DNA of 64,000 nt, from the NCBI RefSeq assembly GCF_002688565.1, contig NZ_CP024011.1, forward strand, positions 2,232,001 through 2,296,000, written 5' to 3'. Source of the DNA: Acinetobacter sp. LoGeW2-3 (GTDB lineage: Bacteria > Pseudomonadota > Gammaproteobacteria > Pseudomonadales > Moraxellaceae). This document shows, one piece after another, positions 41,296 to 58,563 of this stretch (the first letter of the stretch is position 1; each line of letters opens with the position of its first letter). A model generated the notes under the pieces. It had not been told where the DNA came from. It saw only the letters and a list, made by a program, of their open reading frames with translations, and did not search any database. A program made the position numbers and the translations under genes.

Positions 41296-42639
41296 ATGGA
41301 AAACAATCAAATGATAGATTCGAGGGCTTTGGATAAAAAAGTGGCATTAAGGTCGATGCCACTTATTATCCTATGTGCAATTTTTGCAAATTTAGACCGA
41401 ATGAACGTCGGTTTCGCAAAACTGCAAATGACATCAGATTTAGGATTCAGTGAAACCATGTTTGGTTTCGGTGCTGGTCTGTTCTTTATTGCTTATGCAG
41501 CATTTGGTCTGCCGAGTAATATAGCTTTAGACAAATTTGGCGCAAAGCGTTGGATTTGTACCATTATGATTATTTGGGGTGCTTTGACTGCCATTATGTA
41601 TATGGTCCAAACACCTGAACAGTTCTATGCAGTCCGTTTTCTTTTAGGTGCGGCAGAGGCTGGTTTCTTCCCAGGTATCGTTCTATATATTTCACGTTGG
41701 TTCCCTAAGCGTCGCCGTGCAACCATGACAGCCTGGTATACGATTGCTATTCCAATTGCAGGTATTATTGGTGGACCGATTTCAGGCCTCATTATTGATA
41801 GTATGGACATGACCAATGGCTTACGTGGTTGGCAATGGATGTTCATCCTGGAAGGTGTACCTGTAATCTTCCTTGCTTTAATTGTATTAAAGTATCTTCC
41901 AAACACAGTTCAAGATTCTCACTGGTTAACACCTGCTGAGAAACAATACATCTTGAGTGAACTGCAATCAGAAGAAAAAGCCAAAGTTGAATCGATCACT
42001 TCATTCTCAGCAATTTTCTTCAACAAGTATATTTGGATTCTAGTGCTGATTTACTTCTCACTACGTCTAAGCTTAAATACATTGCAACTATGGACACCGA
42101 CGTTTATTCACGGTGCGGGTATCTCAAGCAACTTCTCTGTAGGCTTGTTAAGTGCTTTACCGTATATCGTAGGCGTAGCATTCATGTTCTACATCGGTAA
42201 ATCCTCAGATACAAAAGGTGAGCGTCGTTGGCACTTATTCATTCCAATGATGTTGACTGCTATTGGATTGTGTCTTGCAGGTGCGATGTCAACAAATGTT
42301 GTATTTGTTGTGATTGGCTTAATGTTAGCTGGTATGGGTTCCACAGCTGCATTACCACTATATTGGCAGTTCCCTCAATCCTTCTTGTCAACAGCAACGT
42401 TGGCTGCAGGTTTAGGTATTATCAGCTCGTTTGGTAGTGTTGCATCATTCGGTGCACCATATATGATTGGTTGGATGCGTGACCATATTGCCGATCCTGG
42501 TATGGCACTGTATGTAATTTCATTTGTCATTGTATTAGGTTCATTAACTATCTTTACGATTCCTGCTAAATCAGTAAATCAAAGAGATGCGAAAAAAACA
42601 GCTGATGAAGCAGTATCTGGTGCTGAATCTAAAGCTTAA
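41296..42639 (+). CDS. MFS transporter, anion:cation symporter (ACS) family
   Basis: A 447-residue protein with about 12 membrane segments. The opening LDRMNVGFAKLQMTSDLGFSE and FFIAYAAFGLPSNIALDKFGAKRW are typical of the ACS family, which imports organic anions including aromatic acids. FPKRRRATMTAWY is the conserved loop motif. Located in the Rieske/mhp block, it is the likely inner-membrane importer for the acid degraded there. Confidence 0.88.
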   Translation: MENNQMIDSRALDKKVALRSMPLIILCAIFANLDRMNVGFAKLQMTSDLGFSETMFGFGAGLFFIAYAAFGLPSNIALDKFGAKRWICTIMIIWGALTAIMYMVQTPEQFYAVRFLLGAAEAGFFPGIVLYISRWFPKRRRATMTAWYTIAIPIAGIIGGPISGLIIDSMDMTNGLRGWQWMFILEGVPVIFLALIVLKYLPNTVQDSHWLTPAEKQYILSELQSEEKAKVESITSFSAIFFNKYIWILVLIYFSLRLSLNTLQLWTPTFIHGAGISSNFSVGLLSALPYIVGVAFMFYIGKSSDTKGERRWHLFIPMMLTAIGLCLAGAMSTNVVFVVIGLMLAGMGSTAALPLYWQFPQSFLSTATLAAGLGIISSFGSVASFGAPYMIGWMRDHIADPGMALYVISFVIVLGSLTIFTIPAKSVNQRDAKKTADEAVSGAESKA

Positions 42640-43879: not shown

Positions 43880-44081
43880 TATGTATATTTCTTAAAGGCG
43901 ACTTATGAAAGTGAAGCTTAAATCTAGGTCTAAGTCTAGGTTTAAGCAGAATTATTAAATCTATTTTTAAAAATCTAATTTATTCTTATTTAAAATATTT
44001 ATTTCGAAATAATTTCCAGTTCTTTCTGTGTCTTTATCATATTGAAATTTTGCTTTTCCCATTAGCCAGAAATAATTCATC

Positions 44082-44123
44082 AAATCATCAATTTTTTTTA
44101 AATTTTTTGAAATCATCAATTTT
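44082..44123 (+). promoter_or_regulatory. Tandem upstream activator sites for a V4R/sigma-54 activator
   Basis: AAATCATCAATTTT is repeated at 44082-44095 and 44110-44123, 28 bp apart. The nearer copy ends 49 bp before the -24 element. The half-site ATCATCAA resembles the sequence of the sites before the phenol hydroxylase operon (50658-50697). Confidence 0.6.
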
Positions 44124-44172
44124 AATTAGATAATTTTATTTAAATATGTTTTAAAAACAAATACTTATTTGT

Positions 44173-44187
44173 TGGCACACTCCTTGC
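44173..44187 (+). promoter_or_regulatory. Sigma-54 promoter of the monooxygenase operon
   Basis: TGGCAC-ACTCC-TTGC matches the -24/-12 consensus exactly, 67 bp before the start codon at 44255. With the two V4R activators nearby it predicts activator-dependent expression. Confidence 0.88.
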
Positions 44188-44254
44188 GAAGTACCTAAAA
44201 GCTTAGATAGGAAATTTAAGCAAAAGGATAATTCGAGAACATTGGAGAAGTTTC

Positions 44255-45916
44255 ATGGACAATTTAAATATTTTAATGAAAGGTGTTGATACATTAGTAA
44301 CGGTAGTTGGCGCAGGATTCACTGGACTATATTCATTATATAAACTGCGTGATCAGATGAAAGTGCCTGTTAGAGTTTTTGAAAGTGCTCCGGATGTTGG
44401 TGGAACATGGTACTGGAATAATTATCCTGGCGCACGCTGTGATATCGAGAGTGTGCATTACTCTTATTCATTTGATCAACAGTTACAGCAGGAATGGACC
44501 TGGAGTGAGAAATTTGCGGCCCAGCCAGAAATTCTAAAATATCTCAACCATGTTGCAGACCGTTTTGATCTTAGAAAAGATATTACTTTTAACACTAAAG
44601 TAAATTCTGTAGTGTGGAACGAGCAGGAAAAATACTGGCTGGTTACTACCAATCAAGGCGAAGCCATTAAATCCCGCTTTTTTATTTCCGGTGTAGGTAC
44701 ATTATCAGTACCTAAAAAACCAGAGTTCCCAGGTGTAGAAAACTTCAAAGGTCCTACCTTGATTACAGGCAACTGGCCTAAAGAACCAATCAGCTTAAAA
44801 GGTAAGCGTGTAGGTGTAATTGGAACTGGATCTACAGGTATCCAGCTGATTACAGAAATTGCCAAAGAAGTAGGTGAGTTATATGTTTTCCAGCGTACAC
44901 CTAACTATTCAACCCCTTTGGGCAACGGACTGAATCAGCCAGCAGAAGACCAGGCCAATAAGAAACAGTATTCCCTGATTCGTTCTAACTCGCGTAATCA
45001 TTTTCTAGGCGTCCCTTATAACGAAGTTCAGCCGTCTGCCTTGGCTGTACCGGAAGAAGAGCGTCTAAAAGTCTATGAAGATCGCTATCGCCGTGGAGGA
45101 TTCCGACTCTTTATCGACAGTTATCAGGATATTCTGTTTGACCCAAAAGCCAATGAGACTGTGTCAGAATTTATCCGCCAGAAAATTCACCAGCGTGTGA
45201 AAAAAGCAGAAGTGGCTGATCTACTTGCTCCGAAAGACTATTGTTACGGTACAAAACGTCCACCGATGGAAAGCGGCTATTATGAGGTTTATAACCAAGA
45301 CAATGCCCATTTAGTTGATGTGAAAAAAACACCAATTACCCGAATTGAAGAAAATGGTGTGGTAGTAGGCGATAAGCTTTATGAAGTGGATGTCCTGATT
45401 TTAGCGACCGGCTTTGATGCCATGACTGGGCCACTGTTCGCCTTAGGTCTGCAAGGCAAAAATCAAGAAAAGCTAACAGATAAATGGAAAGACGGGCCGC
45501 GTACCTATCTAGGCCATACGGTTAACGGCTTCCCGAATCTGTTCTTGGTGACGGGTCCACAAAGTCCTTCCGTGCTGTATAACATGCCGCTTGCGATAGA
45601 AGACCATGTCGATCTGGCTACAGGCATTATTAAGCACATGCTGGACCAACAGCTGCTGGAGGTAGATGCTGAGGCTCAAGCGGAAGAAGAGTGGGTCAAC
45701 CATGCCAATGAGCTGGCGCAAGCGAGTCTGCTACCAAATACTGATTCCTGGTATATGGGGGCTAACATACCGGGCAAACCGCGCCGTTGTTTAGTCTATT
45801 TAGGCGGTGCTCCAAAGTATCGTGAGATCTGCGATGAGGTGGTTTCAGCAAATTATAAAGGATTTAAATTTGTTACCGCCGATACTCAGCGCACTTCACT
45901 TCAACAAGTATCTTAA
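44255..45916 (+). CDS. Baeyer-Villiger-type flavin monooxygenase
   Basis: A 553-residue class B flavoprotein monooxygenase. It has the FAD motif VVGAGFTG (about 17-24), the BVMO block VGGTWYWNNYPGARCD and the NADPH motif VIGTGSTG (about 188-195). The BVMO fingerprint FxGxxxHxxxWP is at 164-175 but reads FKGPTLITGNWP, with Ile170 where His is expected. Members insert oxygen next to a carbonyl, making esters or lactones. The gene after it is an esterase. Expression is sigma-54 dependent by promoter. The likely substrate is a ketone. Confidence 0.85.
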   Translation: MDNLNILMKGVDTLVTVVGAGFTGLYSLYKLRDQMKVPVRVFESAPDVGGTWYWNNYPGARCDIESVHYSYSFDQQLQQEWTWSEKFAAQPEILKYLNHVADRFDLRKDITFNTKVNSVVWNEQEKYWLVTTNQGEAIKSRFFISGVGTLSVPKKPEFPGVENFKGPTLITGNWPKEPISLKGKRVGVIGTGSTGIQLITEIAKEVGELYVFQRTPNYSTPLGNGLNQPAEDQANKKQYSLIRSNSRNHFLGVPYNEVQPSALAVPEEERLKVYEDRYRRGGFRLFIDSYQDILFDPKANETVSEFIRQKIHQRVKKAEVADLLAPKDYCYGTKRPPMESGYYEVYNQDNAHLVDVKKTPITRIEENGVVVGDKLYEVDVLILATGFDAMTGPLFALGLQGKNQEKLTDKWKDGPRTYLGHTVNGFPNLFLVTGPQSPSVLYNMPLAIEDHVDLATGIIKHMLDQQLLEVDAEAQAEEEWVNHANELAQASLLPNTDSWYMGANIPGKPRRCLVYLGGAPKYREICDEVVSANYKGFKFVTADTQRTSLQQVS

Positions 45917-45936
45917 TTTGCAGGGAGCAAAAAGTT

Positions 45937-46836
45937 ATGCCAATTACCGCAGAAATTGAAACATTATTAGGCCAGATTCAGGCTGCAGGCATTAAACCTT
46001 TTCATCAAAGTCAGGTAGACGAAGTAAGAGGGGTAGTCGCTTCTTTTCAAACCATGCAAAAACCGGTGGAGAGAAAAAGCCAAACTATGGATATCGAATA
46101 CCGGCCCGGGACGTATCTACGCATTTATCAGCCAAACATATCTTCAGAGAATTTACCGGTACTAGTTTATTACCACGGCGGTGGTTTCGTCGCAGGTAAT
46201 TTGGAAGTTGCGGATGAAACCTGTCATGTGCTTGCAGAAATGAACCAGCATATTGTGGTGTCTGTTGACTATCGTCTGGCACCAGAACATCCATTTCCCG
46301 CTGCGCACTTGGATGCACGGGAAGGATTAGTTTGGACGTTGGAAAACATTCAATATTATGGAGGCGATCCTAAGCAAATTTCACTCATTGGTGACAGTGC
46401 TGGCGGAAATCTGGCAGCAACAACTGCTTTGTGGGCAAAATCTGAAGGCATTGCAATTAAAAAGCAAATTTTAATTTATCCAGTAATTCAGCCGGATATG
46501 GAATCTGCCTCACGGACCGAGGAAAATGGTTATCTAATTTCACAGCAGGATATGGATTGGTTCTGGAAGAACTACCAGGTACAGGACGGTCATACCGTCC
46601 AATATTCTCCACTGCAATTCAAAAATTTGAATGAGGCTCCGGAAACACTAATTATTACCACTGAATATGAAGTCTCACGGGATGATGCTGAATATTATGG
46701 CCTGTGCTTAATCGAAAAAGGAGTGAGCACTACGATTAAACGTATTCAGGGTGGAGTGCATGGCATTTTCTGGCTGTCTGCTGTGGTCCCGGAACATCAG
46801 CTGATTCGGGCAGAAATTGCGAAATTTTTAAGATAG
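45937..46836 (+). CDS. Alpha/beta hydrolase, hormone-sensitive-lipase-like esterase
   Basis: This 299-residue family IV esterase has the oxyanion motif YYHGGGFVAGN, nucleophile Ser in GDSAGGN, and C-terminal Asp/His in the VSRDDAEYYG and GVHGIFW region. It starts 21 bp after the monooxygenase, with GGGAGC as ribosome site. It should hydrolyse the ester or lactone product of the monooxygenase to an alcohol or phenol and an acid. Confidence 0.88.
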   Translation: MPITAEIETLLGQIQAAGIKPFHQSQVDEVRGVVASFQTMQKPVERKSQTMDIEYRPGTYLRIYQPNISSENLPVLVYYHGGGFVAGNLEVADETCHVLAEMNQHIVVSVDYRLAPEHPFPAAHLDAREGLVWTLENIQYYGGDPKQISLIGDSAGGNLAATTALWAKSEGIAIKKQILIYPVIQPDMESASRTEENGYLISQQDMDWFWKNYQVQDGHTVQYSPLQFKNLNEAPETLIITTEYEVSRDDAEYYGLCLIEKGVSTTIKRIQGGVHGIFWLSAVVPEHQLIRAEIAKFLR

Positions 46837-46852
46837 TTTTCCCTAAGATAGA

Positions 46853-46885
46853 AAAACCAGCATTCATTGAATGCTGGTTTTTTAT
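46853..46885 (+). terminator. Terminator of the monooxygenase-esterase operon
   Basis: AAACCAGCATTC/GAATGCTGGTTT with a short ATT loop is followed by a T run, 17 bp after the esterase stop. A 10-bp palindrome, GACCTAGGTC, lies at about 46984-46993 in the gap that follows. Confidence 0.88.
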
Positions 46886-47122
46886 TATTTGAATGTCACT
46901 AAATGCAAAGTAAAAGTCTTGACGCCGTCGTTATCTGAAACAGATTTAGTAGAGATGTTGAAACGTTTAAATTTGTAATTTTAGACCTAGGTCGTCTGTA
47001 TTTCCATATAACCGACCGATACACTAGGTTTTGGAAAATAGTATTAAATTAAAATAAAAACAAAAAGATATTAATACATTTTAGGTGTTTTAAGGTTCGA
47101 TTGAGGTATGGAGAAATACTCA

Positions 47123-48748
47123 ATGAAAAATTATATGGATATTTCAGTAAATGATTTTATTAGTAAAATTTCTTTCGACAGTGAAGATGGAAAAATCTGG
47201 TTCGATGGCGACCGTTCGTTGTTATTCAATGCCAACAGTTTGTATACCCTGAAACAATTTTTAATAGATGAATATGGCTTAGATGTCGCTAAAAAAATCA
47301 TTTACCGCTGGGGGTATGAAATTGGTATTGAAGATGCTGTACGTGCTTTAAAGCTCCGCGCCGATGACCTTCTGTCTGCCTTTGTCGCTGGACCACAGCT
47401 AGCGAAAATACGCGGCATGGTGAACGTAGACATTGAAACTTTAGATTTCAATCCACACCAGAACAAGTTCAAAGGTATTTTTAAATGGAATGATTCTTAT
47501 GAGGCTTATGCGCAAATCAAAAATCGCTCTTATGCGCCATACTGTTGTTGCTGGTGGCTGACCGGATATTCCAGTGGCTATACATCAAAGTTTTTGAATA
47601 CGCCATATCACTATATTGAAACCCATTGTGTTGCCAAAGGCGATGAATGCTGCCGGATTGAAAGTCATGAAGGGCAAGACAGCCATTATGGGTTGAAATC
47701 TGAATATTTTATAGAAACTATAAAGCCATTATTTTTAAACAGCTATTTTGATGCTATTGGCAAGTCCAAGACCTTTGCTCGGGTATGTCAATTACTGCTG
47801 AAAGCCGCTGAATCTGATATTACAGTACTGCTGCAAGGAAGTACCGGCGTCGGTAAAGAAGCTTTTGCACGGGGTATTCATCAGAACAGTGCACGTAAGG
47901 ACAAAGAATTTATTGCAATCAATTGTGCCTGCCTGCCAGAACAATTAATCGAAGCTGAGTTATTTGGAAGCAACAAAGGCGCATTTACCGGCGCAACAGA
48001 AAACCGCATGGGGAAATTTGAACGGGCAGATGGCGGTACTATCTTTTTAGACGAAATTATTGAACTTTCACCGAAGGCGCAGGCTTCTTTACTACGTGTA
48101 CTGCAAACTGGCGAGTTTGAGCGAGTAGGGGATACGAAAACCAGAAAAACCAATGTTCGGGTAGTGGTGGCCTGTAATGAAAGCCTAAAAAAAGCAGTGG
48201 AAGAAGGCCGTTTCCGTAGTGACCTATATTACCGCTTAGCTACCTATCCGGTTTTGATTCCTTCTTTGAAAGAACGTCGTGAAGATATCAATCTGCTGGT
48301 TGAATACTATATCCACTTCTTTGAAAAGCAGTATGACAAGACATTTAATGGCTTCAGTGACCGGGTGTATGCCTTTTTTAACAGCTATGACTGGCCGGGA
48401 AATATACGTGAATTAAGAAATATCTTGGAACGTTCGGTGCTTTTATCTAATGATACGGCACTTGATTTAGAAGATTTAATGCTGGAGGAACAGATCATTC
48501 AGGATTTCCTAAGCCAGAATAAACAAAAATTTAATGAGATTCAGGGTATTGTGACTAAAAGCGATTTAAATCAACTGATTGAACACTTGATGCAAAGTTC
48601 TGAACAGGTTGATATGGAATATGTTGAAGCGACCATTTTACAGACGGCATTAAATAAATACCGAGGTAATGTTTCCAAAGCTGCCCGCTATTTGAATATG
48701 ACACGCAGTGCACTGGAATACCGTTTGAAAAAGCATGAAGTGATTTAA
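47123..48748 (+). CDS. V4R/sigma-54-dependent activator (XylR/NtrC family), MopR paralogue
   Basis: From the ATG at 47123 (541 residues, GGAGA 8 bp upstream) the protein has a XylR-N/V4R sensor (about 1-210), an AAA+ domain with Walker A GSTGVGKEAFARG, NKGAFTGATE and Walker B GGTIFLDEI, and a Fis-type C-terminal helix-turn-helix (NVSKAARYLNMTRSALEYRL). It aligns with the MopR-like protein at 48805. The four zinc ligands are kept (Cys143, Glu166, Cys169, Cys177), as is Trp122, but the phenol-binding His is Ala94. It probably activates the promoter at 44173 with a non-phenolic ligand. An upstream ATG at 47108 is possible. Confidence 0.88.
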   Translation: MKNYMDISVNDFISKISFDSEDGKIWFDGDRSLLFNANSLYTLKQFLIDEYGLDVAKKIIYRWGYEIGIEDAVRALKLRADDLLSAFVAGPQLAKIRGMVNVDIETLDFNPHQNKFKGIFKWNDSYEAYAQIKNRSYAPYCCCWWLTGYSSGYTSKFLNTPYHYIETHCVAKGDECCRIESHEGQDSHYGLKSEYFIETIKPLFLNSYFDAIGKSKTFARVCQLLLKAAESDITVLLQGSTGVGKEAFARGIHQNSARKDKEFIAINCACLPEQLIEAELFGSNKGAFTGATENRMGKFERADGGTIFLDEIIELSPKAQASLLRVLQTGEFERVGDTKTRKTNVRVVVACNESLKKAVEEGRFRSDLYYRLATYPVLIPSLKERREDINLLVEYYIHFFEKQYDKTFNGFSDRVYAFFNSYDWPGNIRELRNILERSVLLSNDTALDLEDLMLEEQIIQDFLSQNKQKFNEIQGIVTKSDLNQLIEHLMQSSEQVDMEYVEATILQTALNKYRGNVSKAARYLNMTRSALEYRLKKHEVI

Positions 48749-48762
48749 TCCTCTTCTTGAAA

Positions 48763-48783
48763 AAAAGTATGAGGATACTTTTT
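48763..48783 (+). terminator. Weak hairpin between the two convergent activator genes
   Basis: AAAAGTAT-GAGG-ATACTTTT with a trailing T, 15 bp after the stop. A further short inverted repeat, GAGCC/GGCTC, follows at about 48791-48812. Confidence 0.5.
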
Positions 48784-48804
48784 AAAGTAAGAGCCGTAAT
48801 TTAA

Positions 48805-50472
48805 TTAGGCTCTATATTTCTTCAGACGGTAGTCCAAGGTCGCACGGCTGATTCCCAATATACGTGCCGCTTCAGACACATTATGCTGGCTTTGATGTAG
48901 CGCATGTAGAATGATCTGCTGTTCATATTTTTCTAATGAAAAATCCGCTTTGAATAGTTCAGATATTTTCTGCTGTTCTTGCATAGAAGAGGTGTGTTCT
49001 AGAGTATGCATAGAATCAGAAGAGTTAAATTCTGGAAATAAATGGCGCAGCTTAATTTCCTGTTGGTCATCAGCAAGTAGGGAGGCTCGTTCTAGGACAT
49101 TCTCCAGTTCGCGAATGTTGCCGGGCCAGGAATAATTCATAAAATAATGCGTAGCTTTGTTGCTGAGTCCATTGAATTTCTTGTCATACATATTTTCAAA
49201 GCGTTTTAAAAAATGTTTGACCAACAATGGAATATCTTCCTTACGTTCACGTAAAGGTGGAATTTTGACTGGAAAAATATTTAAGCGGAAATATAAATCT
49301 GAGCGGAAACGTCCTTCTTTAACTGCTTGCTCAAGATTTTCATTGGTAGCTGCCACTACTCGAACATCTACTTTCCGAGTCTGATAATCACCTACACGTT
49401 CAAATTCGCCTTCCTGCAACATACGAAGAAGGGCAGCTTGTGCGCGTGGAGATAATTCGGCCAATTCATCCAGGAAAATGGTACCCTGATGCGCTCGTTC
49501 AAATTTGCCGATACGCTGACTAACAGCACCTGTGAATGCTCCTTTTTCTACGCCAAATAACTCGGCTTCAATTAAGTCATGTGGGATGCAGGCACAATTG
49601 ACCGCAATAAATGGTTTGTCTCTTCGTGGGCTTGCATAATGAATGCCGCGGGCAAAAGCTTCCTTGCCAACACCGGTTTCTCCAGAAAGTAAAACTGCGA
49701 CTTTGCTGCCGGCAGCTTTTTTCAGCAGATCACAGACATAGCGGTAAGCAGCCGATTCGCCTACTGCATTAAACATGCTGTAGTCAGCTTCAGCTCGAGT
49801 ATAAATGTCTTGTTTTAGCTGGTTCAGCTCGGCTCTTAGCGCAATAATTTCATCTGAAATAGGGTCAGGAGACATGAACTGAATTAGTTCATCGGCATTC
49901 TCCCATTCACTCAGCGGTTTGCCGATAATACGGCAATGGTCGTGCCCTTGTGCAATGCACTGGGTTTCTTGGTAAATAATAGTTTGGCCCATCACATAGC
50001 TGCTGTAGCCGCATGCATAACCTAGCTGCAGCCAGCAAGCGGGTTCATCCGATTTGCCAAATTCATTAAGATGCACCTCACCTTCGAAGGAGTGCAGCCA
50101 ATTAAAATCGGCATAAAACTCATGGTGCTTATGACTTAATTCTAAAGCATTGACTTCTACCTGAACCATACCGCGGATCCCATGCATTTGCGGTCCGGCC
50201 ATAAAAGCTTCAGTTTCATTTAAGTCTGGTCTAAGTTGGGCGGTGGCTTCTGCGTCTCGCATACCAGCTTGATAGCCACATCGAATAAAGAAGCGTTTAG
50301 CGGGTTCATAGCCCAGCATGTCGTGCAGATCTTTGCGTAAAAAGCCAAAAATGTCGGTATGCAACAATAGCATACGATTTTCCTCGAACCAGATCTGGCC
50401 ATGATCTGCATCAAATTTGATACAGTTGATGAGGTCCTGAATTTCATGCTTCGGCTTTAAATAATTCTGCAT
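48805..50472 (-). CDS. mopR: MopR/DmpR-type phenol-responsive sigma-54 activator
   Basis: A 555-residue activator: V4R sensor (about 1-215), a linker, AAA+ domain with Walker A GETGVGKEAFARG, VEKGAFTGAVS and FLDELAEL, and C-terminal Fis helix (NVSEAARILGISRATLDYRL). Residues match the known phenol sensor MopR with a constant offset of nine: His97 and Trp125 (phenol contacts) and Cys146, Glu169, Cys172, Cys180 (zinc). It is divergent from mphKLMNOP, as in Acinetobacter phenol degraders. The gene is also called mphR or mopR in different strains. Confidence 0.93.
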   Translation of the reverse strand: MQNYLKPKHEIQDLINCIKFDADHGQIWFEENRMLLLHTDIFGFLRKDLHDMLGYEPAKRFFIRCGYQAGMRDAEATAQLRPDLNETEAFMAGPQMHGIRGMVQVEVNALELSHKHHEFYADFNWLHSFEGEVHLNEFGKSDEPACWLQLGYACGYSSYVMGQTIIYQETQCIAQGHDHCRIIGKPLSEWENADELIQFMSPDPISDEIIALRAELNQLKQDIYTRAEADYSMFNAVGESAAYRYVCDLLKKAAGSKVAVLLSGETGVGKEAFARGIHYASPRRDKPFIAVNCACIPHDLIEAELFGVEKGAFTGAVSQRIGKFERAHQGTIFLDELAELSPRAQAALLRMLQEGEFERVGDYQTRKVDVRVVAATNENLEQAVKEGRFRSDLYFRLNIFPVKIPPLRERKEDIPLLVKHFLKRFENMYDKKFNGLSNKATHYFMNYSWPGNIRELENVLERASLLADDQQEIKLRHLFPEFNSSDSMHTLEHTSSMQEQQKISELFKADFSLEKYEQQIILHALHQSQHNVSEAARILGISRATLDYRLKKYRA

Positions 50473-50657
50473 TGTGCTATGTCCTTTGCCTTCTTATTGT
50501 TCTCAAAATCCCTTGAGTAACCCTTTTAATCTACAGGGTTATGGCATAAGAATGTACTGCAAAAAACGCCAATCACCATACTGAAAAAATAGGCATTTGG
50601 GAATTCAAAGGCTTATCTCAAACTCTTATTGCATCCGATCTTTTCTACAATTCACCA

Positions 50658-50697
50658 TTTGATGAATCTATCAAAAAAAAATTCATGGATTGATGAA
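50658..50697 (+). promoter_or_regulatory. MopR-type upstream activator sites
   Basis: Two inverted repeats stand side by side: TTTGATGAATCTATCAAA (50658-50675) and TTCATGGATTGATGAA (50682-50697). They end 63 bp before the -24 element, in the position of sites for DmpR/XylR-type activators. Confidence 0.7.
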
Positions 50698-50760
50698 ATT
50701 TTATAGATAAATTTAACTTAAATTTTAAATATTTTAATAAAAAACAATCACATAAAATGT

Positions 50761-50775
50761 TGGCATGCTAATTGA
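50761..50775 (+). promoter_or_regulatory. Sigma-54-like promoter of the mph operon
   Basis: TGGCAT-GCTAA-TTGA: the GG at -24 is conserved, but the -12 element has GA instead of GC. Position and nearby activator sites still favour sigma-54 control. Confidence 0.65.
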
Positions 50776-50824
50776 TATATATCTTATAGCAAGGAAATTT
50801 GTCCATGAAGAAGGATTCTCAGCC

Positions 50825-51118
50825 ATGACAAATCAAGCAGCGATGCCACAGCTGACCAAATATATTCGGGTAACCGGTGACCGGAACGCAAAATTTGTAG
50901 AGTTCGATTTTGCCATTCACGATCCGACTTTATTTGTTGAGCTGGTACTGCCGCGCGATGCGTTTCAAAAATTCTGCGAGGTGAACCATGTCGTTGAAAT
51001 GAATGAAGCGCAAAAAGCCAGAAATGATGCGGAAGAAGAAAAATGGCGCTACGGGACTGAAGCAACTTTAGTCGGTGCGCAGCGATATATCCCGGATCAT
51101 GAAGATCCATTGAAATAG
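50825..51118 (+). CDS. mphK: Phenol hydroxylase assembly protein MphK (DmpK-like)
   Basis: A 97-residue protein from the ATG at 50825 (AAGGA 10-14 bp upstream), with KYIRVTGDRNAKFVEFDFAIHDPTLFVELVLP, the DmpK/PhK family core. It helps assemble or activate the oxygenase and is not needed for catalysis itself. It heads the K-L-M-N-O-P order of multicomponent phenol hydroxylases. A 5' extension from 50765 overlaps the promoter and was rejected. Confidence 0.9.
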   Translation: MTNQAAMPQLTKYIRVTGDRNAKFVEFDFAIHDPTLFVELVLPRDAFQKFCEVNHVVEMNEAQKARNDAEEEKWRYGTEATLVGAQRYIPDHEDPLK

Positions 51119-51133
51119 CTTAAGGAGATAGCC

Positions 51134-52138
51134 ATGTCATTAGAAATTAAAACTTCCAGCATTGAACCGATACGCCAGAGTTATGCTTATATCGAACGCC
51201 GTTTTGGCAATAAGCCGGCAACTCGCTATCAGGAAGTGAGTTTTGATATTCAGGCGGAAACCAATTTTCATTACCGACCTTTATGGAAGCCGGAAAAAAC
51301 TTTAAATGATAAAACCCATACTGCGCTGGTAATGCAAGATTGGTATGCATTTAAAGATCCACGCCAGTTTTACTACGGAACTTATGTGCAGCACCGTGCA
51401 CGTTTACAAGATACCGCTGAAGCGAATTTTAGCTTTTTTGAAAAGCGTCGGTTGGCAGAACATATTTCTGAAGAAGTCAAAGCCAAAGTTATTGCCTTGT
51501 TTATTCCGTTCCGTCATATCGAACAGACTGCCAATCTGCATATGATGTCTGGCAGTGCTTATGGTTACGGCACAGTACTGACACAAGCCTGTATTTATGC
51601 CGCTATGGACCGATTAGGCATGGCACAGTACATCTCACGGATTGGACTTGCGCTGGATGGTGGCACAGGGGAGTCCTTAATTCCAGCCAAGCACGCCTGG
51701 ATGCAGGATGAAGCTTGGCAAGGACTACGTAAGTTATGTGAGCAAAGCCTGACAGAACAGGATTATTTCAAACTGTTTTTATTGCAGAACCTAGTAATTG
51801 ACAGCTTTATGTCAGAGCTGGTTTATACCCAGTTTGATCAATGGCTGGGAGAGCATCAGGCGCGTGATTTGGCGATGCTGACCGAATTTATGCAGGAAGC
51901 ACTAGTAGATTTACGCAAATGGTCGGACAGTGTTTTTAAAACTGCTGCAACAGAATCTGTCCAAAACAAGCAATTACTCAGCCAGTGGCTAGCAGAATAT
52001 CTGCCGGTAGTAAAAGCAGCATTTACGCCGTGGGCAGCACAGGTTTTACCATTAGATGCCATAGAAGTAGCAGAACAAAAACTGCTGGAACGCAGTAAAA
52101 AATTGGGCATTGAACTCGAACAAATTGAACAGGCTTAA
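51134..52138 (+). CDS. mphL: Phenol hydroxylase beta-type subunit MphL
   Basis: A 334-residue diiron-oxygenase beta subunit (DmpL-like). Blocks RRFGNKPATRYQEVSFDIQ, DWYAFKDPRQFYYGTYVQHR and the helical ARLQDTAEANFSFFEKRRL are typical. It lacks the iron ligands and pairs with MphN in the (alpha-beta-gamma)2 hydroxylase. AAGGAGATAGCC precedes the ATG. Confidence 0.92.
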   Translation: MSLEIKTSSIEPIRQSYAYIERRFGNKPATRYQEVSFDIQAETNFHYRPLWKPEKTLNDKTHTALVMQDWYAFKDPRQFYYGTYVQHRARLQDTAEANFSFFEKRRLAEHISEEVKAKVIALFIPFRHIEQTANLHMMSGSAYGYGTVLTQACIYAAMDRLGMAQYISRIGLALDGGTGESLIPAKHAWMQDEAWQGLRKLCEQSLTEQDYFKLFLLQNLVIDSFMSELVYTQFDQWLGEHQARDLAMLTEFMQEALVDLRKWSDSVFKTAATESVQNKQLLSQWLAEYLPVVKAAFTPWAAQVLPLDAIEVAEQKLLERSKKLGIELEQIEQA

Positions 52139-52149
52139 GGAGAAGCAGC

Positions 52150-52416
52150 ATGTCTAAAGTTTATCTCGCATTACAGGACAATGATACTTCACGCTACATC
52201 ATCGAGGCGATTGAAGCAGACAATCCTGAAGCCAACATTCAATATCTACCGGCCATGATCCGAGTGGAAAGCGAAACAGATTTGATTGTCCGTGCAGAAA
52301 CGGTTTCAGAGAAGCTGGGACAGGATTGGGATATTCAATCCCTTCAACTCAATATGATTACGCTGGGCGGCAATGTTGAAGAGGATGATGATACCTTCCG
52401 CCTGCATTGGAACTGA
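52150..52416 (+). CDS. mphM: Phenol hydroxylase regulatory (coupling) protein MphM
   Basis: This 88-residue protein of the MmoB/DmpM type has no cofactor motif: VYLALQDNDTSRYIIEAIE, then SLQLNMITLGGNVEEDDDTFRLHWN. It binds the hydroxylase and couples oxygen activation to substrate. It starts 11 bp after mphL. Confidence 0.92.
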   Translation: MSKVYLALQDNDTSRYIIEAIEADNPEANIQYLPAMIRVESETDLIVRAETVSEKLGQDWDIQSLQLNMITLGGNVEEDDDTFRLHWN

Positions 52417-52481
52417 GCCCTAAATAAGAATTGCACCGCATAGAGGCCGTGCATCTGAAAAAGACATTAAGGACGACAAGA

Positions 52482-54005
52482 ATGAACTCTAAAATCAATG
52501 CGATTGGCAAAAAGCTGAATGCCAAAGACCGTTACCGTGCACTGACCCGTGATCTGGACTGGGAGTTTTCTTACGCAGACCGTAAAGAAGCTTTTCCTTA
52601 TGAAGAATTTGAGGGTATTAAAATTACAGACTGGTCCAAGTGGGAAGATCCATTCCGCTTAACCATGGATGCTTACTGGAAATATCAGGCGGAAAAAGAG
52701 AAAAAGCTATATGCCATTTTTGATGCTTTTGCACAGAACAATGGCCAGCTGAATGTGACCAATGAGCGCTATTTAAATGCCATTAAACTATTTTTAACTG
52801 CTGTAACACCTTTGGAATATCAGGCTTTCCAAGGCTATGCACATGTCGGACGCCAGTTCAGTGGGGTAGGTGCACGTATTGCATCACAGATGCAGTCGAT
52901 TGATGAATTGCGTCATGTGCAGACCCAGATCCATGCCATGAGCCATTACAATAAATTCTTTGATGGTTTTCAGGACTGGTCACATATGCATGACCGTGTT
53001 TGGTACCTGTCTGTACCTAAATCCTTCTTCGAAGATGCACGTTCTGCAGGTCCGTTTGAATTTTTACTTTCAATCAGCTTTGCCTTTGAATATGTGTTGA
53101 CGAATCTTTTGTTTGTGCCATTCATGTCCGGTGCTGCTCATAATGGCGATATGGCAACGGTGACTTTTGGCTTCAGCGCACAGTCTGATGAAGCTCGCCA
53201 TATGACATTAGGTCTGGAAATTGTGAAATTCCTGCTGGAACAGCATGAAGATAATGTGCCGATTGTGCAGGAATGGATTGATAAATGGTTCTGGCGGGGT
53301 ACACGCCTGCTGTCGATTGTCGGCATGATGATGGACTACATGTTGCCAAACAAAGTTATGTCGTGGAAAGAGGCCTGGGAAACCTATTTTGAAGAAGCCG
53401 GGGGCGCACTGTTCAAAGATTTGAGCCGTTACGGCATTCGCATGCCGAAATATTCGGAAGTGATTGAAAAAGAGAAAGAGCACGTTTCACATCAGGCCTG
53501 GTGGATTTTCTATAACTTTGGACATGCGGCAGGTTTCCATACCTGGATTCCAACCGATGAAGAAATGGATTGGTTATCTGAAAAATATCCGGACACATTC
53601 GATAAGTATTACCGTCCACGCTGGGAATTAGCGCGCAAGATGGAAGCCGAAGGTAAACGTTTTTACAGCGCCGGGCTGCCGCAATTGTGCCAGATCTGTC
53701 AGATTCCAATGACATTTACCGAAATGGATGGTGACCCAACTGCGTTCAGTTATCGCAGTAGTGTGTATAAAGGTGAGCGCTACCACACCTGTTCCGATGG
53801 CTGTCATGACATCTTCGAACGTGAACCAGAGAAATATATTCAGGCTTGGCTGCCAGTTAACCAAATTTTGCAAGGCAACTGTGGCGGACCTGATCTTGAA
53901 GTCATGCTACGGGAGTACTACCGCTTTAATGTCGGCGCTGACAATCTGGACATTGAAGGCTCGCCAGATCAGGAACGCTGGAAAAAATGGAAAGGCGTGG
54001 CTTAA
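52482..54005 (+). CDS. mphN: Phenol hydroxylase alpha (catalytic diiron) subunit MphN
   Basis: A 507-residue alpha subunit from the ATG at 52482 (AAGGACGACAAG upstream). The diiron site is formed by two carboxylate-His motifs, DELRH and DEARHM, with additional Glu ligands, and the C-terminal YHS-type module CQICQIPMTF...YHTCSDGCHDIFE binds zinc. It hydroxylates phenol to catechol. A longer frame from 52431 has no ribosome site. Confidence 0.94.
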   Translation: MNSKINAIGKKLNAKDRYRALTRDLDWEFSYADRKEAFPYEEFEGIKITDWSKWEDPFRLTMDAYWKYQAEKEKKLYAIFDAFAQNNGQLNVTNERYLNAIKLFLTAVTPLEYQAFQGYAHVGRQFSGVGARIASQMQSIDELRHVQTQIHAMSHYNKFFDGFQDWSHMHDRVWYLSVPKSFFEDARSAGPFEFLLSISFAFEYVLTNLLFVPFMSGAAHNGDMATVTFGFSAQSDEARHMTLGLEIVKFLLEQHEDNVPIVQEWIDKWFWRGTRLLSIVGMMMDYMLPNKVMSWKEAWETYFEEAGGALFKDLSRYGIRMPKYSEVIEKEKEHVSHQAWWIFYNFGHAAGFHTWIPTDEEMDWLSEKYPDTFDKYYRPRWELARKMEAEGKRFYSAGLPQLCQICQIPMTFTEMDGDPTAFSYRSSVYKGERYHTCSDGCHDIFEREPEKYIQAWLPVNQILQGNCGGPDLEVMLREYYRFNVGADNLDIEGSPDQERWKKWKGVA

Positions 54006-54082
54006 GCAACGCCATAGATCAGGATTGTCTGTAGAGATTTGGGGCAATCCTTCTTACTCAAGGAATTTAGGAGTTTACTGTT

Positions 54083-54445
54083 ATGCCTGTTAAAGCGATT
54101 AACGACCAATACCAATTTGAACCACGCGATCTGCAATTCCACTATGGCGACAATATGCTGATTTATGTGGGCTGGGATCAGCATACCTTGTTCTGTGCAG
54201 CGCATGCCCTAGTGGTATCGCCGAAGCAGAGCTTTCAAGATCTGATCGACCAACAACTTCAAGGTGGATTCCATCAGCATCCAGACTTCGTAAATATTGA
54301 CTGGTCCAAGGTGCAGTATTTACTGGATGGTCAGGCCTTTACGCCTGTTTTGGATCAAACGTTAGAAAGCCAAAATATAGGTCATAAGTCTCTGTTGCGC
54401 TTTGCTACGCCAGGTCTAGACGGCTACCAACATAGTCATGTCTAA
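54083..54445 (+). CDS. mphO: Phenol hydroxylase gamma subunit MphO
   Basis: A 120-residue DmpO-like protein with blocks YQFEPRDLQFHYGDNMLIYVGW and HTLFCAAHALVVSPKQSF, the third structural subunit of the hydroxylase. It lies 77 bp after mphN; the gap has a modest hairpin, AGGATTG/CAATCCT at about 54021-54051. Confidence 0.92.
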   Translation: MPVKAINDQYQFEPRDLQFHYGDNMLIYVGWDQHTLFCAAHALVVSPKQSFQDLIDQQLQGGFHQHPDFVNIDWSKVQYLLDGQAFTPVLDQTLESQNIGHKSLLRFATPGLDGYQHSHV

Positions 54446-54456
54446 GGAGAGTGCTC

Positions 54457-55518
54457 ATGAGTTATCAAGTAACAATTGAACCGGTGGGAATGACCATTGA
54501 AGTAGAAGAAGATCAAACTATTCTAGATGCGGCATTGCGTCAAGGCGTATGGCTGCCTTTTGCTTGTGGTCATGGCACTTGTGGTACTTGTAAAGTCCAA
54601 GTGACAGATGGTTTTTATGATGTGGGTGAGGCTTCACCTTTTGCTCTAATGGATATTGAGCGTGAGGAAAATAAAGTCTTAGCCTGCTGCTGCAAGCCTG
54701 AGTCTGATATGGTCATTGAAGCCGATGTGGATGAAAACGAAGACTTCCTTGGCTATCTGGTTCAAGACTACGATGCTGAAGTCTTAGAAATAAAAGATCT
54801 TTCTCCAACCATTAAAGGTATACGCCTGTCCATTGACCGCCCAATGCAGTTTCAGGCCGGGCAGTACATCAATGTCCAATTTCCGGGCATTGAAGGTACC
54901 CGAGCTTTTTCCATTGCCAATCCACCGAGTGAAGAAGGCATTGTTGAGCTGCATATACGCCAGGTTCCGGGCGGTGCAGCAACCACTTATGTACATGAGT
55001 CATTACAGCAGGGGGATAAGCTCGCAGTCTCTGGACCTTATGGACAATTCTTTGTGCGTAAATCAGATACACAGGATGCTATTTTTATTGCAGGCGGATC
55101 AGGTCTATCCAGTCCTCAATCCATGATTCAGGATTTATTGGAGCAGGGAGATACTCGCACCATCTACTTATTTCAAGGCGCACGTGATGTAGCCGAGCTG
55201 TATAACCGTGAGCTGTTTGAAACTTGGGTGAAGCAATATCCAAACTTCCGCTATATTCCAGCTTTAAATGCTCCGAAGGCAGAAGATGACTGGCAGGGCT
55301 TTACTGGTTTCGTGCATGAGGCAGTGGCTGATTATTTTGAAAATAAATGTGCAGGACATAAGGCTTATTTATGCGGCCCACCCCTGATGATTGATGCTGC
55401 GATTTCAACCTTAATGCAAAGTCGATTATTTGAGCGCGATATCCATACAGAACGTTTTTTAAGTGCAGCTGATGGTGCAGCTGATCAATCCAGATCAGCA
55501 TTGTTTAAGCATATTTAA
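54457..55518 (+). CDS. mphP: Phenol hydroxylase reductase MphP
   Basis: From the ATG at 54457 (353 residues; AAGGAG 7 bp upstream favours it over GTG 54451) the protein has an N-terminal plant-type 2Fe-2S domain (CGHGTCGTC and distal CCC), an FAD domain (TRAFSIANPP) and an NAD domain (IFIAGGSGLSSPQSM, YLCGPPLMIDAA). It passes NADH electrons to MphN. It is the reverse domain order to IacF and the Rieske reductase. Confidence 0.94.
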   Translation: MSYQVTIEPVGMTIEVEEDQTILDAALRQGVWLPFACGHGTCGTCKVQVTDGFYDVGEASPFALMDIEREENKVLACCCKPESDMVIEADVDENEDFLGYLVQDYDAEVLEIKDLSPTIKGIRLSIDRPMQFQAGQYINVQFPGIEGTRAFSIANPPSEEGIVELHIRQVPGGAATTYVHESLQQGDKLAVSGPYGQFFVRKSDTQDAIFIAGGSGLSSPQSMIQDLLEQGDTRTIYLFQGARDVAELYNRELFETWVKQYPNFRYIPALNAPKAEDDWQGFTGFVHEAVADYFENKCAGHKAYLCGPPLMIDAAISTLMQSRLFERDIHTERFLSAADGAADQSRSALFKHI

Positions 55519-55607
55519 TCTATTCAATTATTCTAATTTTTTGCTAGAGCAGCTGATACATCATTCTGTCTCACTGCCTTAGCTCACACTCACTCAAGGA
55601 AAAGAGT

Positions 55608-56528
55608 ATGAACCATCAAGACATCGAAAATTTAGTTAAAAGAATTAATGTAGATACTGCCAATGGTCCTGTAGATCAGCGTGTTCAGCAGGTGGTAGTA
55701 CGTTTAGTTTCAGATTTATTTAAGGCTATTGAAGACTTAGACTTGCAGCCTTCTGAAGTATGGAAAGGTCTGGAATATCTGACTGATGCCGGACAGGCCA
55801 ATGAGTTAGGTCTATTGGCTGCCGGTATCGGGCTGGAGCATTTCCTGGATTTGCGTGCAGATGAAGCGGATGCAAAAGCAGGTGTCACTGGCGGCACACC
55901 GCGGACAATTGAAGGTCCACTTTATGTTGCCGGAGCACCTGAAAGTGTGGGTTTTGCACGCATGGATGATGGCACTGAGTCAGATCATGTTGATACATTA
56001 ATTATCGAAGGTGTCGTAACAGATACTGAAGGCCAAATTCTGCCGAATGCAAAAGTTGAAATCTGGCATGCTAACAGCTTGGGGAATTACTCCTTTTTTG
56101 ATAAATCCCAGTCAGATTTTAATTTGCGACGTACCATTTATACTGATGAAAATGGCCGTTATACCGCATTAACTACAATGCCAGTAGGTTATGGCTGTCC
56201 GCCAGATGGTACTACACAAGCTTTATTGAATAAGTTGGGACGTCATGGAAACCGACCGTCACATGTGCATTATTTTATTTCTGCACCTAGTTTCCGTAAA
56301 TTAACTACCCAATTCAATATTGAAGGCGATCAGTACCTGTGGGATGATTTTGCCTTTGCGACACGTGATGGATTAGTTGCTACAGCAGTAGAGGTGAAAG
56401 AGCCTGCTGAAATTCAGCGCCGTGGCTTAGACAAACCATTTAAACATATTCAGTTTGATATCAAGTTAGTTAAAGAGGCTGCGCAAATACCATCTGCGGA
56501 AGTAGAACGCCGCCGTGCCAGTGCTTGA
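55608..56528 (+). CDS. catA: Catechol 1,2-dioxygenase, copy 1 (phenol-linked)
   Basis: A 306-residue intradiol dioxygenase. Iron ligands are Tyr161 (SLGNYSFF), Tyr195 (VGYGCPP), His219 and His221 (SHVHYF). It has the N-terminal helical linker domain for dimerisation. It opens catechol to cis,cis-muconate. It lies 89 bp after mphP with AAGGAAAAGAGT upstream and is followed by a terminator. It differs from the second copy (61394) at about 52 of 306 residues by hand count. Confidence 0.94.
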   Translation: MNHQDIENLVKRINVDTANGPVDQRVQQVVVRLVSDLFKAIEDLDLQPSEVWKGLEYLTDAGQANELGLLAAGIGLEHFLDLRADEADAKAGVTGGTPRTIEGPLYVAGAPESVGFARMDDGTESDHVDTLIIEGVVTDTEGQILPNAKVEIWHANSLGNYSFFDKSQSDFNLRRTIYTDENGRYTALTTMPVGYGCPPDGTTQALLNKLGRHGNRPSHVHYFISAPSFRKLTTQFNIEGDQYLWDDFAFATRDGLVATAVEVKEPAEIQRRGLDKPFKHIQFDIKLVKEAAQIPSAEVERRRASA

Positions 56529-57691: not shown

Positions 57692-58471
57692 TCAGACTGA
57701 AATAAATTCTTTTACTGCCTGATTAAAGGCTTCTGGCTGTTCAACATTGGAAATATGCGAAGCATCTATTCCATATAGCTGGCTGTTCGCAATACGTTGC
57801 TGCATAAACTGGCCATCTGCAACGGTGGTCACCGAATCCTGCTGACCCGCAATAATCAGCACAGGCACGGTGATACTGTTTAATTGATCACGGACATCCG
57901 CTTTAGCCAGAGCTTCACAGCAGCTTGCATAGCCTTCTGGGCTGCCAGCTCCGAGGTCGTTTGAAAGCTCTGCTACGACTGCCGGGTTGCTCTGGATAAA
58001 GGGATTGGTAAACCAGCGTGATGCCGCAGTTGCGGCAATTGGTGCAAGGCCTTGCTCACGGACAAGCGCAGCACGATCTTGCCATGCCTGTTCCTGGCCA
58101 ATTTTGGCTGCAGTATTGCAGACAATCACGTGGCTAAAACGTTCTGGCTTATGAATCGCTAACCATTGACCGGTTAAGCCACCCATAGAAATACCACAGA
58201 ATGTAGCTTTTGCAATGTTCAAATGATCCAGTAGATTCACGACATCCTGACCCAGCTGCTCCAGGCTATATGGGCCTTGCGGCGCAGATGATGCACCATG
58301 ACCACGGGTGTCATAGCAGATTACATAATAATCCTGCTGGAAATGTTCAATCTGTGGCTGCCACATGCTGTATTTGGTACCCAGTGAGTTGGAGAAAATC
58401 AGAGCAGGCTTACTAGCGTCACCAAAGGTCTGGTAATTAATCTGGGCATCATTCGATGTAAATGTTGGCAT
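57692..58471 (-). CDS. catD: 3-oxoadipate enol-lactonase CatD
   Basis: A 259-residue alpha/beta hydrolase: nucleophile Ser in FCGISMGG, His near the C-terminus (IDASHISNVEQPEAF), and the opening SLGTKYSMWQPQIEHF typical of PcaD/CatD. It hydrolyses 3-oxoadipate enol-lactone to 3-oxoadipate. It is the last gene of the leftward cat operon. The ribosome site GGGAGGAATTTTA is supplied by the end of the intergenic element at 58475-58545. Confidence 0.92.
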   Translation of the reverse strand: MPTFTSNDAQINYQTFGDASKPALIFSNSLGTKYSMWQPQIEHFQQDYYVICYDTRGHGASSAPQGPYSLEQLGQDVVNLLDHLNIAKATFCGISMGGLTGQWLAIHKPERFSHVIVCNTAAKIGQEQAWQDRAALVREQGLAPIAATAASRWFTNPFIQSNPAVVAELSNDLGAGSPEGYASCCEALAKADVRDQLNSITVPVLIIAGQQDSVTTVADGQFMQQRIANSQLYGIDASHISNVEQPEAFNQAVKEFISV

Positions 58472-58474
58472 TAA

Positions 58475-58545
58475 AATTCCTCCCGGCCTCCCTTTCTTGC
58501 ATTTGATTCAAAGCCGTACTTTGAATCTACATTCAGGGAGGGGTT
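58475..58545. repeat. Intergenic hairpin element between catF and catD
   Basis: The element is bounded by AATTCCTCCC and GGGAGGGG-type inverted ends and has an inner stem GATTCAAAG/CTTTGAATC. It shares CTTTCTTGC and CAGGGAGG with the larger element at 59793-59898. It resembles a REP/MITE-like intergenic repeat. Confidence 0.6.
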
Positions 58546-58563
58546 CATATTTTTAATTGTGCA

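Follow-up and report, generated by a model that had tools for sequence, protein, structure and literature searches.

A monooxygenase–esterase operon precedes the phenol genes

What might a Baeyer–Villiger-type monooxygenase (BVMO) and an esterase contribute when they lie directly ahead of the genes for phenol degradation? This arrangement occurs in Acinetobacter sp. LoGeW2-3, in a stretch of 64,000 nucleotides that was analysed as a whole (the window). A preliminary description had placed both enzymes in one sigma-54 unit, followed by a V4R activator, mopR, the phenol hydroxylase operon and catA. This layout was borne out in every element: a sigma-54 promoter, a BVMO of the phenylacetone monooxygenase (PAMO) class, a family IV esterase, a terminator, an XylR/DmpR-type activator, mopR, mphKLMNOP and catA follow one another in this order. 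The BVMO and esterase genes are separated by 20 nt, with a single sigma-54 promoter ahead of them and the terminator behind the esterase, and the activator gene is convergent with mopR. The features are:

44076–44091, +: predicted MopR-type enhancer (UAS) of the BVMO promoter, TTCATCAAATCATCAA; third-best place in the window with both the de novo motif and the matrix
44104–44119, +: half-matching second enhancer site, TTTTTGAAATCATCAA, lying 28 bp 3′ of the site above; below 2 bits with the matrix
44172–44188, +: sigma-54 −24/−12 element of the BVMO promoter, TTGGCACACTCCTTGCG; near-consensus, same letters in the NCu2D-2 plasmid copy
44255–45916, +: PAMO-class Baeyer–Villiger-type flavin monooxygenase by homology (P0001, 553 aa); proposed to turn an aryl ketone into a phenyl ester
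45937–46836, +: family IV (HSL-type) esterase (P0002, 299 aa; PF07859, HGGG, GDSAG); proposed to release phenol from a phenyl ester
46851–46883, +: intrinsic terminator 3′ of the esterase; strong hairpin (z −7.2), among the listed terminator-like sites, which overall are no commoner in the window than in shuffles
47108–48748, +: XylR/DmpR-type sigma-54 activator with H106A-type pocket (P0003; domains, pocket comparison); proposed aryl-ketone sensor
48805–50472, −: mopR/mobR, phenol sensor (P0004; NCBIfam MobR, MopR structures 5kbe and 7vqf)
50651–50666, +: mph enhancer site 1, TTCACCATTTGATGAA; best with the de novo motif, second with the matrix
50682–50697, +: mph enhancer site 2, TTCATGGATTGATGAA; second with the de novo motif, best with the matrix
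50760–50774, +: mph sigma-54 element, TTGGCATGCTAATTG; like PHEA-2 TTGGCATA-N4-TTGTA
50825–51118, +: mphK (PF06099), likely start, from the promoter position
51134–52138, +: mphL (PF02332)
52150–52416, +: mphM (PF02406)
52482–54005, +: mphN (PF02332 and YHS)
54083–54445, +: mphO (PF04663)
54451–55518, +: mphP, reductase (Fer2, FAD and NAD domains)
55608–56528, +: catA, catechol 1,2-dioxygenase (TIGR02439, 476.7 bits, cut-off 392)
57692–63870, −: one cluster of catD, catF, CoA-transferase B and A subunits, a second catA, catC and catB (NCBIfam)

The start of mphK is most likely 50825 and not 50765, because 50765 falls within the promoter and 50825 matches the distance of 39 bp to the start site that was published for PHEA-2. 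The start codon of mphN was corrected to the ATG at 52482. For all seven catechol-branch proteins of the last cluster, the best NCBIfam match exceeds its cut-off.

The BVMO lies on a branch lacking the fingerprint histidine

The BVMO aligns to PAMO (1w4x) across query residues 15–538 with about 50% identity and scores 583 bits, compared with 440–465 bits against cyclohexanone monooxygenases (CHMO). A CHMO-type reading was dropped on account of the clearly higher score to PAMO, and homology places the enzyme in the PAMO class. Two Rossmann GxGxxG motifs are present (GAGFTG, residues 19–24; GTGSTG, 190–195). The BVMO fingerprint is FxGxxxHxxxWP, also written FxGxxxHxxxW[P/D]; here this region reads FKGPTLITGNWP, with Ile at the position of the expected His (His173 in PAMO), and does not match exactly. 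As a regular expression caught only 54 of 120 matches, the fingerprint was followed in an alignment: PAMO has the His, and none of 121 sequences in the group of the BVMO does. The PAMO residues R337 (the catalytic Arg), K336, D66 and W501 are kept in our protein and throughout the group (121/121). Because Ile replaces the fingerprint His, we class the protein, by sequence, as a BVMO homologue whose branch departs from the fingerprint and not as a strict type I BVMO; such a branch matters for the recognition of BVMOs in genome sequences. Other differences from PAMO are Q152T, L338P, I339P, L340M, A442V, S444Y and L447P. In the tree, the BVMO nests in a mainly actinobacterial clade (support 100/99), and dN of 0.015 against dS of 0.98 (115 codons) points to strong purifying selection. 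Its predicted structure, which stands outside the evidence base, has a mean pLDDT of 74.3.

The esterase matches Abhydrolase_3 (PF07859) with 202.7 bits and has both the HGGG oxyanion motif and the GDSAG serine elbow, features that assign it to family IV (HSL).

The second activator keeps an aromatic pocket and lacks the phenol anchor

The protein encoded at 47108–48748 has the architecture XylR_N, V4R, AAA+ and Fis HTH, with PF06505, PF00158, PF25601 and PF02954 above their cut-offs, V4R at 28.8 bits below its 31-bit cut-off, and a GAFTGA motif in the AAA+ domain. With the MobR profile NF041906 (cut-off 999), it scores 568.6 bits and the protein encoded at 48805 scores 1037.9 bits; at the position of MopR His106, the former has Ala and the latter His. 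Both measures set the 47108 protein outside, and the 48805 protein within, the predicted MobR/MopR phenol sensors. Ten of the 13 MopR pocket positions are unchanged in the activator, including nine of the ten hydrophobic ring contacts (Ala162 is Ser). The phenol-anchoring His106 is Ala in all six activator orthologues and His in all 116 MobR-like proteins. Because the pocket is largely kept and this anchor is lost, a non-phenolic effector is to be expected.

With 45–48% identity to MobR types and an orthologue group of its own, the activator is not a recent in-place duplicate of mopR. The whole genome encodes only these two XylR_N activators. EtpR of Aromatoleum aromaticum EbN1 is likewise an XylR_N/V4R sigma-54 activator and responds to an acetophenone, p-hydroxyacetophenone; the route under its control is anaerobic, and it has retained the His/Trp anchor for phenolics, whereas our activator has Ala for the His (PMC4630880, PMC10715001).

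The BVMO and mph promoters carry the same enhancer type

Our first enhancer pattern gave four matches where 1.23 were expected, a number reached in 2 of 100 shuffles; this pattern and the enhancer matrix (39 sites from 26 of 32 loci) were both seeded from the window's own promoters, and their agreement with 44076 is therefore built in to some extent. The site was recovered again without a window-derived seed, by de novo search of the mopR–mph intergenic regions of other genomes (32/32; 29 after the redundancy filter). The three top places of the de novo enhancer motif in the window are the two mph enhancers and the BVMO promoter, and the BVMO promoter is also the best window match of the de novo sigma-54 motif from these regions. 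We consider the resemblance of this promoter to the mopR–mph motifs, as read from the DNA, to be more than chance. No third composite promoter was found in the genome with a pattern drawn from both known promoters, for which only this absence is informative.

Distribution of the cassette and its parts

Among 175 Acinetobacter genomes, the intact cassette occurs in one. A plasmid of NCu2D-2 carries a promoter–BVMO remnant, in a genome without mopR at the cut-off used; relative to the BVMO promoter, the remnant differs at 2 of 16 positions in the full enhancer and at 1 of 16 in the second site. The junction of the V4R activator with mopR is also present in a second Acinetobacter genome. In the clade of the BVMO itself, 19 of the 20 actinobacterial loci examined have an esterase of the same type directly behind the BVMO. 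Searches with tblastn near these 20 copies gave a CatA-like match in three, which is suggestive only, and MphL or MphN in none. Among 80 more distant BVMO loci (43–53%), 11 have an esterase of this type and none has MphL, MphN or CatA matches.

Precedents for the two-gene logic

The 4-hydroxyacetophenone system of Pseudomonas fluorescens ACB, HAPMO, applies the BVMO and esterase logic of the cassette to a hydroxyacetophenone. Its product is hydroquinone, not phenol, and its BVMO belongs to a subgroup other than that of the cassette. The closest published case that we found is acpAB of Rhodococcus rhodochrous GD02, a likeness judged by gene arrangement and description. According to its description, which names HAPMO as analogous and mentions acpAB homologues in Proteobacteria, acpAB of GD02 and of R. 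jostii RHA1 encodes an adjacent BVMO (PAMO being the closest characterised) and an NlhH-like esterase, the same two-gene logic, and, as proposed for the cassette, a phenol hydroxylase and the cat branch follow metabolically (PMC9618137). On acetophenone, acpAB of GD02 rose >4000-fold, pheAB 950-fold and catABC >100-fold, and RHA1 grows on this substrate (PMC9618137). The pathway had been proposed biochemically in 1975 and was tied to genes in Rhodococcus in 2022, without enzyme assays (PMC9618137). Unlike acpAB, the Acinetobacter cassette has sigma-54 control and an XylR/DmpR-type activator and adjoins a multicomponent phenol hydroxylase. With the Acinetobacter MopR/MphR–mphKLMNOP system, the window has in common the regulator, divergent operon, enhancers and −24/−12 element, to which it adds a diverged second activator and a BVMO–esterase operon on the same enhancer type (PMC3063778). 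No Acinetobacter acetophenone locus or V4R-controlled BVMO was found in the open-licence PMC literature.

Because PAMO shares the same degree of identity (53–56%) with several BVMO types of Rhodococcus, this measure does not discriminate, and naming the actinobacterial clade AcpA on this basis was dropped.

A proposed route from aryl ketones to phenol

We infer substrate, effector, assignment of the activator to its site, and flux as follows. An acetophenone-type, non-phenolic aromatic ketone would bind the activator, which would then bind the MopR-like enhancer at 44076 and drive sigma-54 transcription from 44172. The BVMO would insert oxygen beside the ring, forming a phenyl ester, which the esterase would split into phenol and a carboxylic acid. 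Phenol would switch on the adjacent mopR/mph genes and pass through catechol into the β-ketoadipate branch encoded at 55.6–63.9 kb.

Given the aromatic-type sensor, the phenol-gene neighbourhood and the common type of switch, the module probably degrades ketones of the acetophenone kind as far as phenol and so feeds the neighbouring phenol regulon. The earlier proposal that the pair supplies phenol to mph is in this respect supported, not proven. It gains from the pairing conserved in the BVMO's own clade, from the same logic in Rhodococcus acpAB, co-induced with phenol-hydroxylase and cat genes, from the anchorless aromatic pocket together with the MopR-type enhancer, and from the recurrence of the V4R–mopR junction; linkage to mph did not prove universal. 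On balance, we also think it likely that the cassette moves horizontally and serves the phenol regulon, to which it has been joined, as an entry module for aryl ketones. Counted against these views are the Ile in the fingerprint, the single intact cassette in 175 genomes, the remnant genome without mopR at the cut-off, the few catechol genes near relatives (3/20; 0/80), the two changes in 16 positions of the remnant enhancer and, for the parallels in other bacteria, the equal closeness of other Rhodococcus BVMO types to PAMO, the grouping of the Marinibacterium BVMO with PAMO and the possible damage to the CB82 frame.

An unlikely alternative has the pair acting on ketones that are aliphatic or cyclic (acetone, butanone, cyclohexanone types, or the methyl ketones that arise when alkanes are oxidised subterminally), with the mph neighbourhood incidental. 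BVMO–esterase pairs are thought to do so elsewhere, an acetone monooxygenase (ACMO) has been described, the NCu2D-2 remnant sits in a genome without detected mopR, and in one study a BVMO and a carboxylesterase of A. towneri rose during growth on a substrate with 2-ketones (PMC13055320). However, the dedicated activator belongs to the aromatic-sensing XylR_N/V4R family and keeps nine of ten ring contacts, and the BVMO is PAMO-class, not CHMO-class. Phenylacetone monooxygenase, as the nearest BVMO with a solved structure, raises the thought of a benzyl-type ketone such as phenylacetone, which would yield benzyl acetate and benzyl alcohol, hence no phenol and no coupling to mph. This seems very unlikely: PAMO has no known native substrate, the position beside mopR–mph would be idle, and the Rhodococcus acpAB precedent passes through phenol hydroxylase (PMC9618137). 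The near-consensus enhancer could even let MopR itself bind the BVMO promoter; together with the lost fingerprint His, this would fit an activator and operon that respond to phenol or other products and serve to detoxify or scavenge phenyl esters, with a BVMO that is secondary or not a Baeyer–Villiger enzyme (for example, a sulfoxidase). The activator without a phenol anchor stays linked, however, the four PAMO residues are invariant in the group and the BVMO is under strong purifying selection, so that we hold this to be highly improbable.

As to novelty, the route from ketone through phenyl ester and phenol to catechol, as set out in the preliminary description, is known elsewhere; what is new is its place and wiring in Acinetobacter. 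Returning to the aryl-ketone route, it is possible, if somewhat short of an even chance, that the 47108 protein arose from a MopR-like phenol sensor, chiefly through loss of the His anchor, and is the first sensor of the XylR/DmpR type to be devoted to an aryl ketone without a hydroxyl group, with Trp134 free to hold the ketone oxygen; that it and MopR make up a circuit in which two sensors and two promoters use almost the same enhancer, and by which the Acinetobacter phenol operon becomes an acetophenone-to-succinate route; and that the large branch to which the BVMO belongs works without the fingerprint His. The locus would give a low-GC gammaproteobacterial acetophenone route in one 20-kb block; it would also offer a predicted biosensor for ketones and a clear comparison in regulation, with two paralogous sensors and two promoters sharing one enhancer type.

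Related pairs beside other genes

Also in line with the proposed route, in Marinibacterium anthonyi pLA6_004 a BVMO and an esterase adjoin an HpaB-type (phenol-hydroxylase-like) enzyme; this BVMO groups with PAMO in the tree, outside the clade of the cassette BVMO. The same neighbours occur in Bradyrhizobium sp. CB82, together with an intradiol dioxygenase and catC, and the frame of the CB82 BVMO may be damaged at its start. Two BVMO relatives (P0006, P0010) and two V4R relatives (P0127, P0128) agree in source and in the length of the longest contig (35216 and 17684 bases), which suggests that the BVMOs and V4R proteins lie on the same contigs; mopR was not found on contigs of these lengths among the 120 of 152 mopR matches listed. 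In five actinobacterial loci with reading frames listed, a large regulator-like protein is encoded beside the BVMO–esterase pair, and in the two of these that were scanned it is LuxR-type with STAND/TPR parts.

Organization of the monooxygenase-esterase locus

The preliminary description had proposed that a Baeyer-Villiger-type monooxygenase (BVMO) and an esterase convert an aryl ketone via a phenyl ester to phenol, feeding the phenol hydroxylase operon mphKLMNOP and thus catechol formation. Gene and family calls located every element of the layout it named (promoter, monooxygenase, esterase, activator, mopR, mphKLMNOP and catA).

Features of the locus
44172-44188, sigma-54 promoter, TTGGCACACTCCTTGCG
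44255-45916, flavin monooxygenase (BVMO)
45937-46836, HSL-type esterase
46851-46883, strong terminator
47108-48748, XylR_N/V4R/AAA+/Fis activator
48805-50472, mopR, on the strand opposite to the activator

Outside the region first described, positions 57692-63870 hold catD, catF, both CoA-transferase subunits, a second catA, catC and catB, so that the window covers the conversion of phenol as far as the beta-ketoadipate end products. The two catA copies are at 55608-56528 (with mph) and 61394-62314 (with the cat cluster). A separate cluster (35145-42639) comprises a porin-like protein (by eye), Rieske oxygenase large and small subunits (benA-like, below cut-offs), a threonine-dehydrogenase-like Zn dehydrogenase, a ferredoxin-type reductase, an IclR regulator and an MFS transporter.

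On evidence gathered since that description, the proposed route is probably the best explanation of the locus, with substrate, effector and flux as predictions. The route is already known in Rhodococcus. According to the available text on R. rhodochrous GD02 (PMC9618137), acpA encodes a BVMO with 55% identity to phenylacetone monooxygenase (PAMO, 1w4x) and acpB an esterase; on acetophenone, these were the top-induced genes (>4000-fold), with pheAB induced 950-fold and catABC >100-fold. The same text reports that RHA1 carries acpAB and grows on acetophenone, mentions homologues in Proteobacteria, and assigns acpAB without demonstrated enzyme activity. GD02 AcpA is likened here to the window BVMO by this published description, not by sequence, and percent identity to PAMO fails to separate Rhodococcus BVMO types. 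What would be new is a location in Acinetobacter, control through sigma-54 and a variant of the phenol sensor that is predicted to sense ketones.

The BVMO belongs to a clade paired with esterases

The closest solved relative of the BVMO is PAMO (583 bits), followed by steroid monooxygenase (543) and cyclohexanone monooxygenases (440-465). In a 46-row tree, it fell within a 29-row, mainly actinobacterial clade (support 100/99), with PAMO outside; Arthrobacter and Corynebacterium proteins were among its nearest rows, at a weakly supported fork (81/92). The fingerprint motif of Baeyer-Villiger enzymes contains a His, and the alignment places Ile at this position in the window BVMO. We rejected damage as the reason: when the window BVMO was aligned with the 120 matches listed of 7,985, none of the 121 sequences had the His and all conserved PAMO Arg337, Lys336, Asp66 and Trp501, which makes the loss a trait of the branch. 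Comparison with an IS-truncated Acinetobacter plasmid copy (dN 0.015, dS 0.98; 115 codons) indicates that the protein evolved under strong constraint.

We compared 20 actinobacterial loci, from 20 of the 26 strongly matching genomes among 301 in the family of one Rhodococcus genome. Their BVMOs are 55-63% identical to that of the window, and in 19 of the 20 loci a same-strand esterase (41-44% identical) lies immediately 3', beginning 29-155 bp past the aligned BVMO end. In contrast, among 80 loci whose BVMOs are more distant (43-53%), only 11 had an esterase match of this type, indicating that the pairing is a clade trait; MphL, MphN and CatA matches were found in none of these 80. Large LuxR-type STAND/TPR proteins adjoin the actinobacterial pair at two loci (L203:10818-13127 and L198:10690-13128) and are possible regulators of acpAB-like genes.

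In two other lineages, a BVMO-esterase pair adjoins an HpaB-type hydroxylase and a flavin reductase in Marinibacterium anthonyi pLA6_004 (annotated nphA1), whose BVMO clusters with PAMO outside the clade, and on a plasmid of Bradyrhizobium sp. CB82, whose BVMO is inside the clade on a long branch. In CB82, BVMO and esterase share a single 825-residue reading frame (L135:8028-10505), which is without the first Rossmann motif and may have an out-of-frame start; its neighbours are an intradiol dioxygenase, a muconate-type cycloisomerase and catC.

The activator pocket lacks the phenol-anchoring His

Using the MopR pocket residues listed in the available text of PMC10715001 and PMC7264223, we found 10 of 13 positions unchanged in the activator, including Trp134 and nine of ten hydrophobic ring contacts; the differences are A162S, S166T and His106Ala. 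Position 106 is Ala in all six orthologues of the activator and His in all 116 MobR-like proteins compared, many near-identical to each other. As far as the available texts describe, the pocket His anchors the phenol hydroxyl and is retained even in EtpR, a sensor of p-ethylphenol and p-hydroxyacetophenone (PMC4630880, PMC10715001), whereas the activator has Ala; the toluene sensor XylR differs again, with Tyr (PMC7264223). The natural reading of this loss would be an aromatic effector that lacks a phenolic hydroxyl, and we infer that Trp134 may hold the ketone oxygen.

We searched de novo for motifs between mopR and mph in other Acinetobacter genomes (32 intergenic regions, of which 29 passed a redundancy filter). 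The first motif was the sigma-54 -24/-12 element, whose top window match is the BVMO promoter (44171). The second, a palindrome (TTCATCATTTGATGAA), had its top three window places at 50651 and 50682 (mph) and 44076 (BVMO). These three places also ranked highest with a matrix built on 39 sites drawn from 26 of the 32 loci; its fourth place scored 6 bits less, and sites scoring as well as 44076 are expected at 0.033 per 64 kb. This result is partly circular because the matrix sites were chosen with a window-derived pattern. The CAAATC spacer of the 44076 site is identical to that of several mph sites. Across the whole 3.36-Mb genome, a composite promoter pattern matched just the BVMO and mph promoters, from which it was written, and the only two XylR_N proteins are the activator and MopR. 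MopR may also act on the BVMO promoter by cross-talk.

The cassette is rare and mobile in Acinetobacter

Among 175 Acinetobacter genomes, mopR was detected in 44, and this BVMO in intact form in the window's own genome only; the same held for esterase and activator at the cut-offs used, which partial copies would escape. In G119, the only one of 33 other mopR genomes with compared neighbourhood sequence to match the activator at >58% identity, the final 223 activator residues (92% identical) abut a truncated mopR (88%) and adjoin a transposase resembling that of IS17 by eye (L139:390-3287). This is a decaying copy of the activator-mopR junction. Plasmid NZ_CP015595.1 of Acinetobacter sp. NCu2D-2 (L102:12001-13515) carries the promoter and first 115 BVMO codons, interrupted by IS17 (IS5-like). 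Its -24/-12 element is identical to that of the window, and the full enhancer and half site differ at 2 and 1 of 16 positions, respectively. This remnant is flanked by a DUF1826 gene and choline genes, at a site elsewhere than beside mopR, and the NCu2D-2 genome is absent from the 44 with detected mopR. Together, the single intact copy, the G119 junction and this remnant mark the cassette as rare and mobile, and show that its linkage to mopR predates this genome and is not universal.

Five other Acinetobacter genomes encode BVMOs of 41-47% identity, placed in other tree groups. At two Acinetobacter loci (L017 in G037, L018 in G140), the BVMOs (45-46%) have the fingerprint His and a 30-31% identical esterase ∼0.9 kb beyond the BVMO match, and represent a different ketone cluster within the genus.
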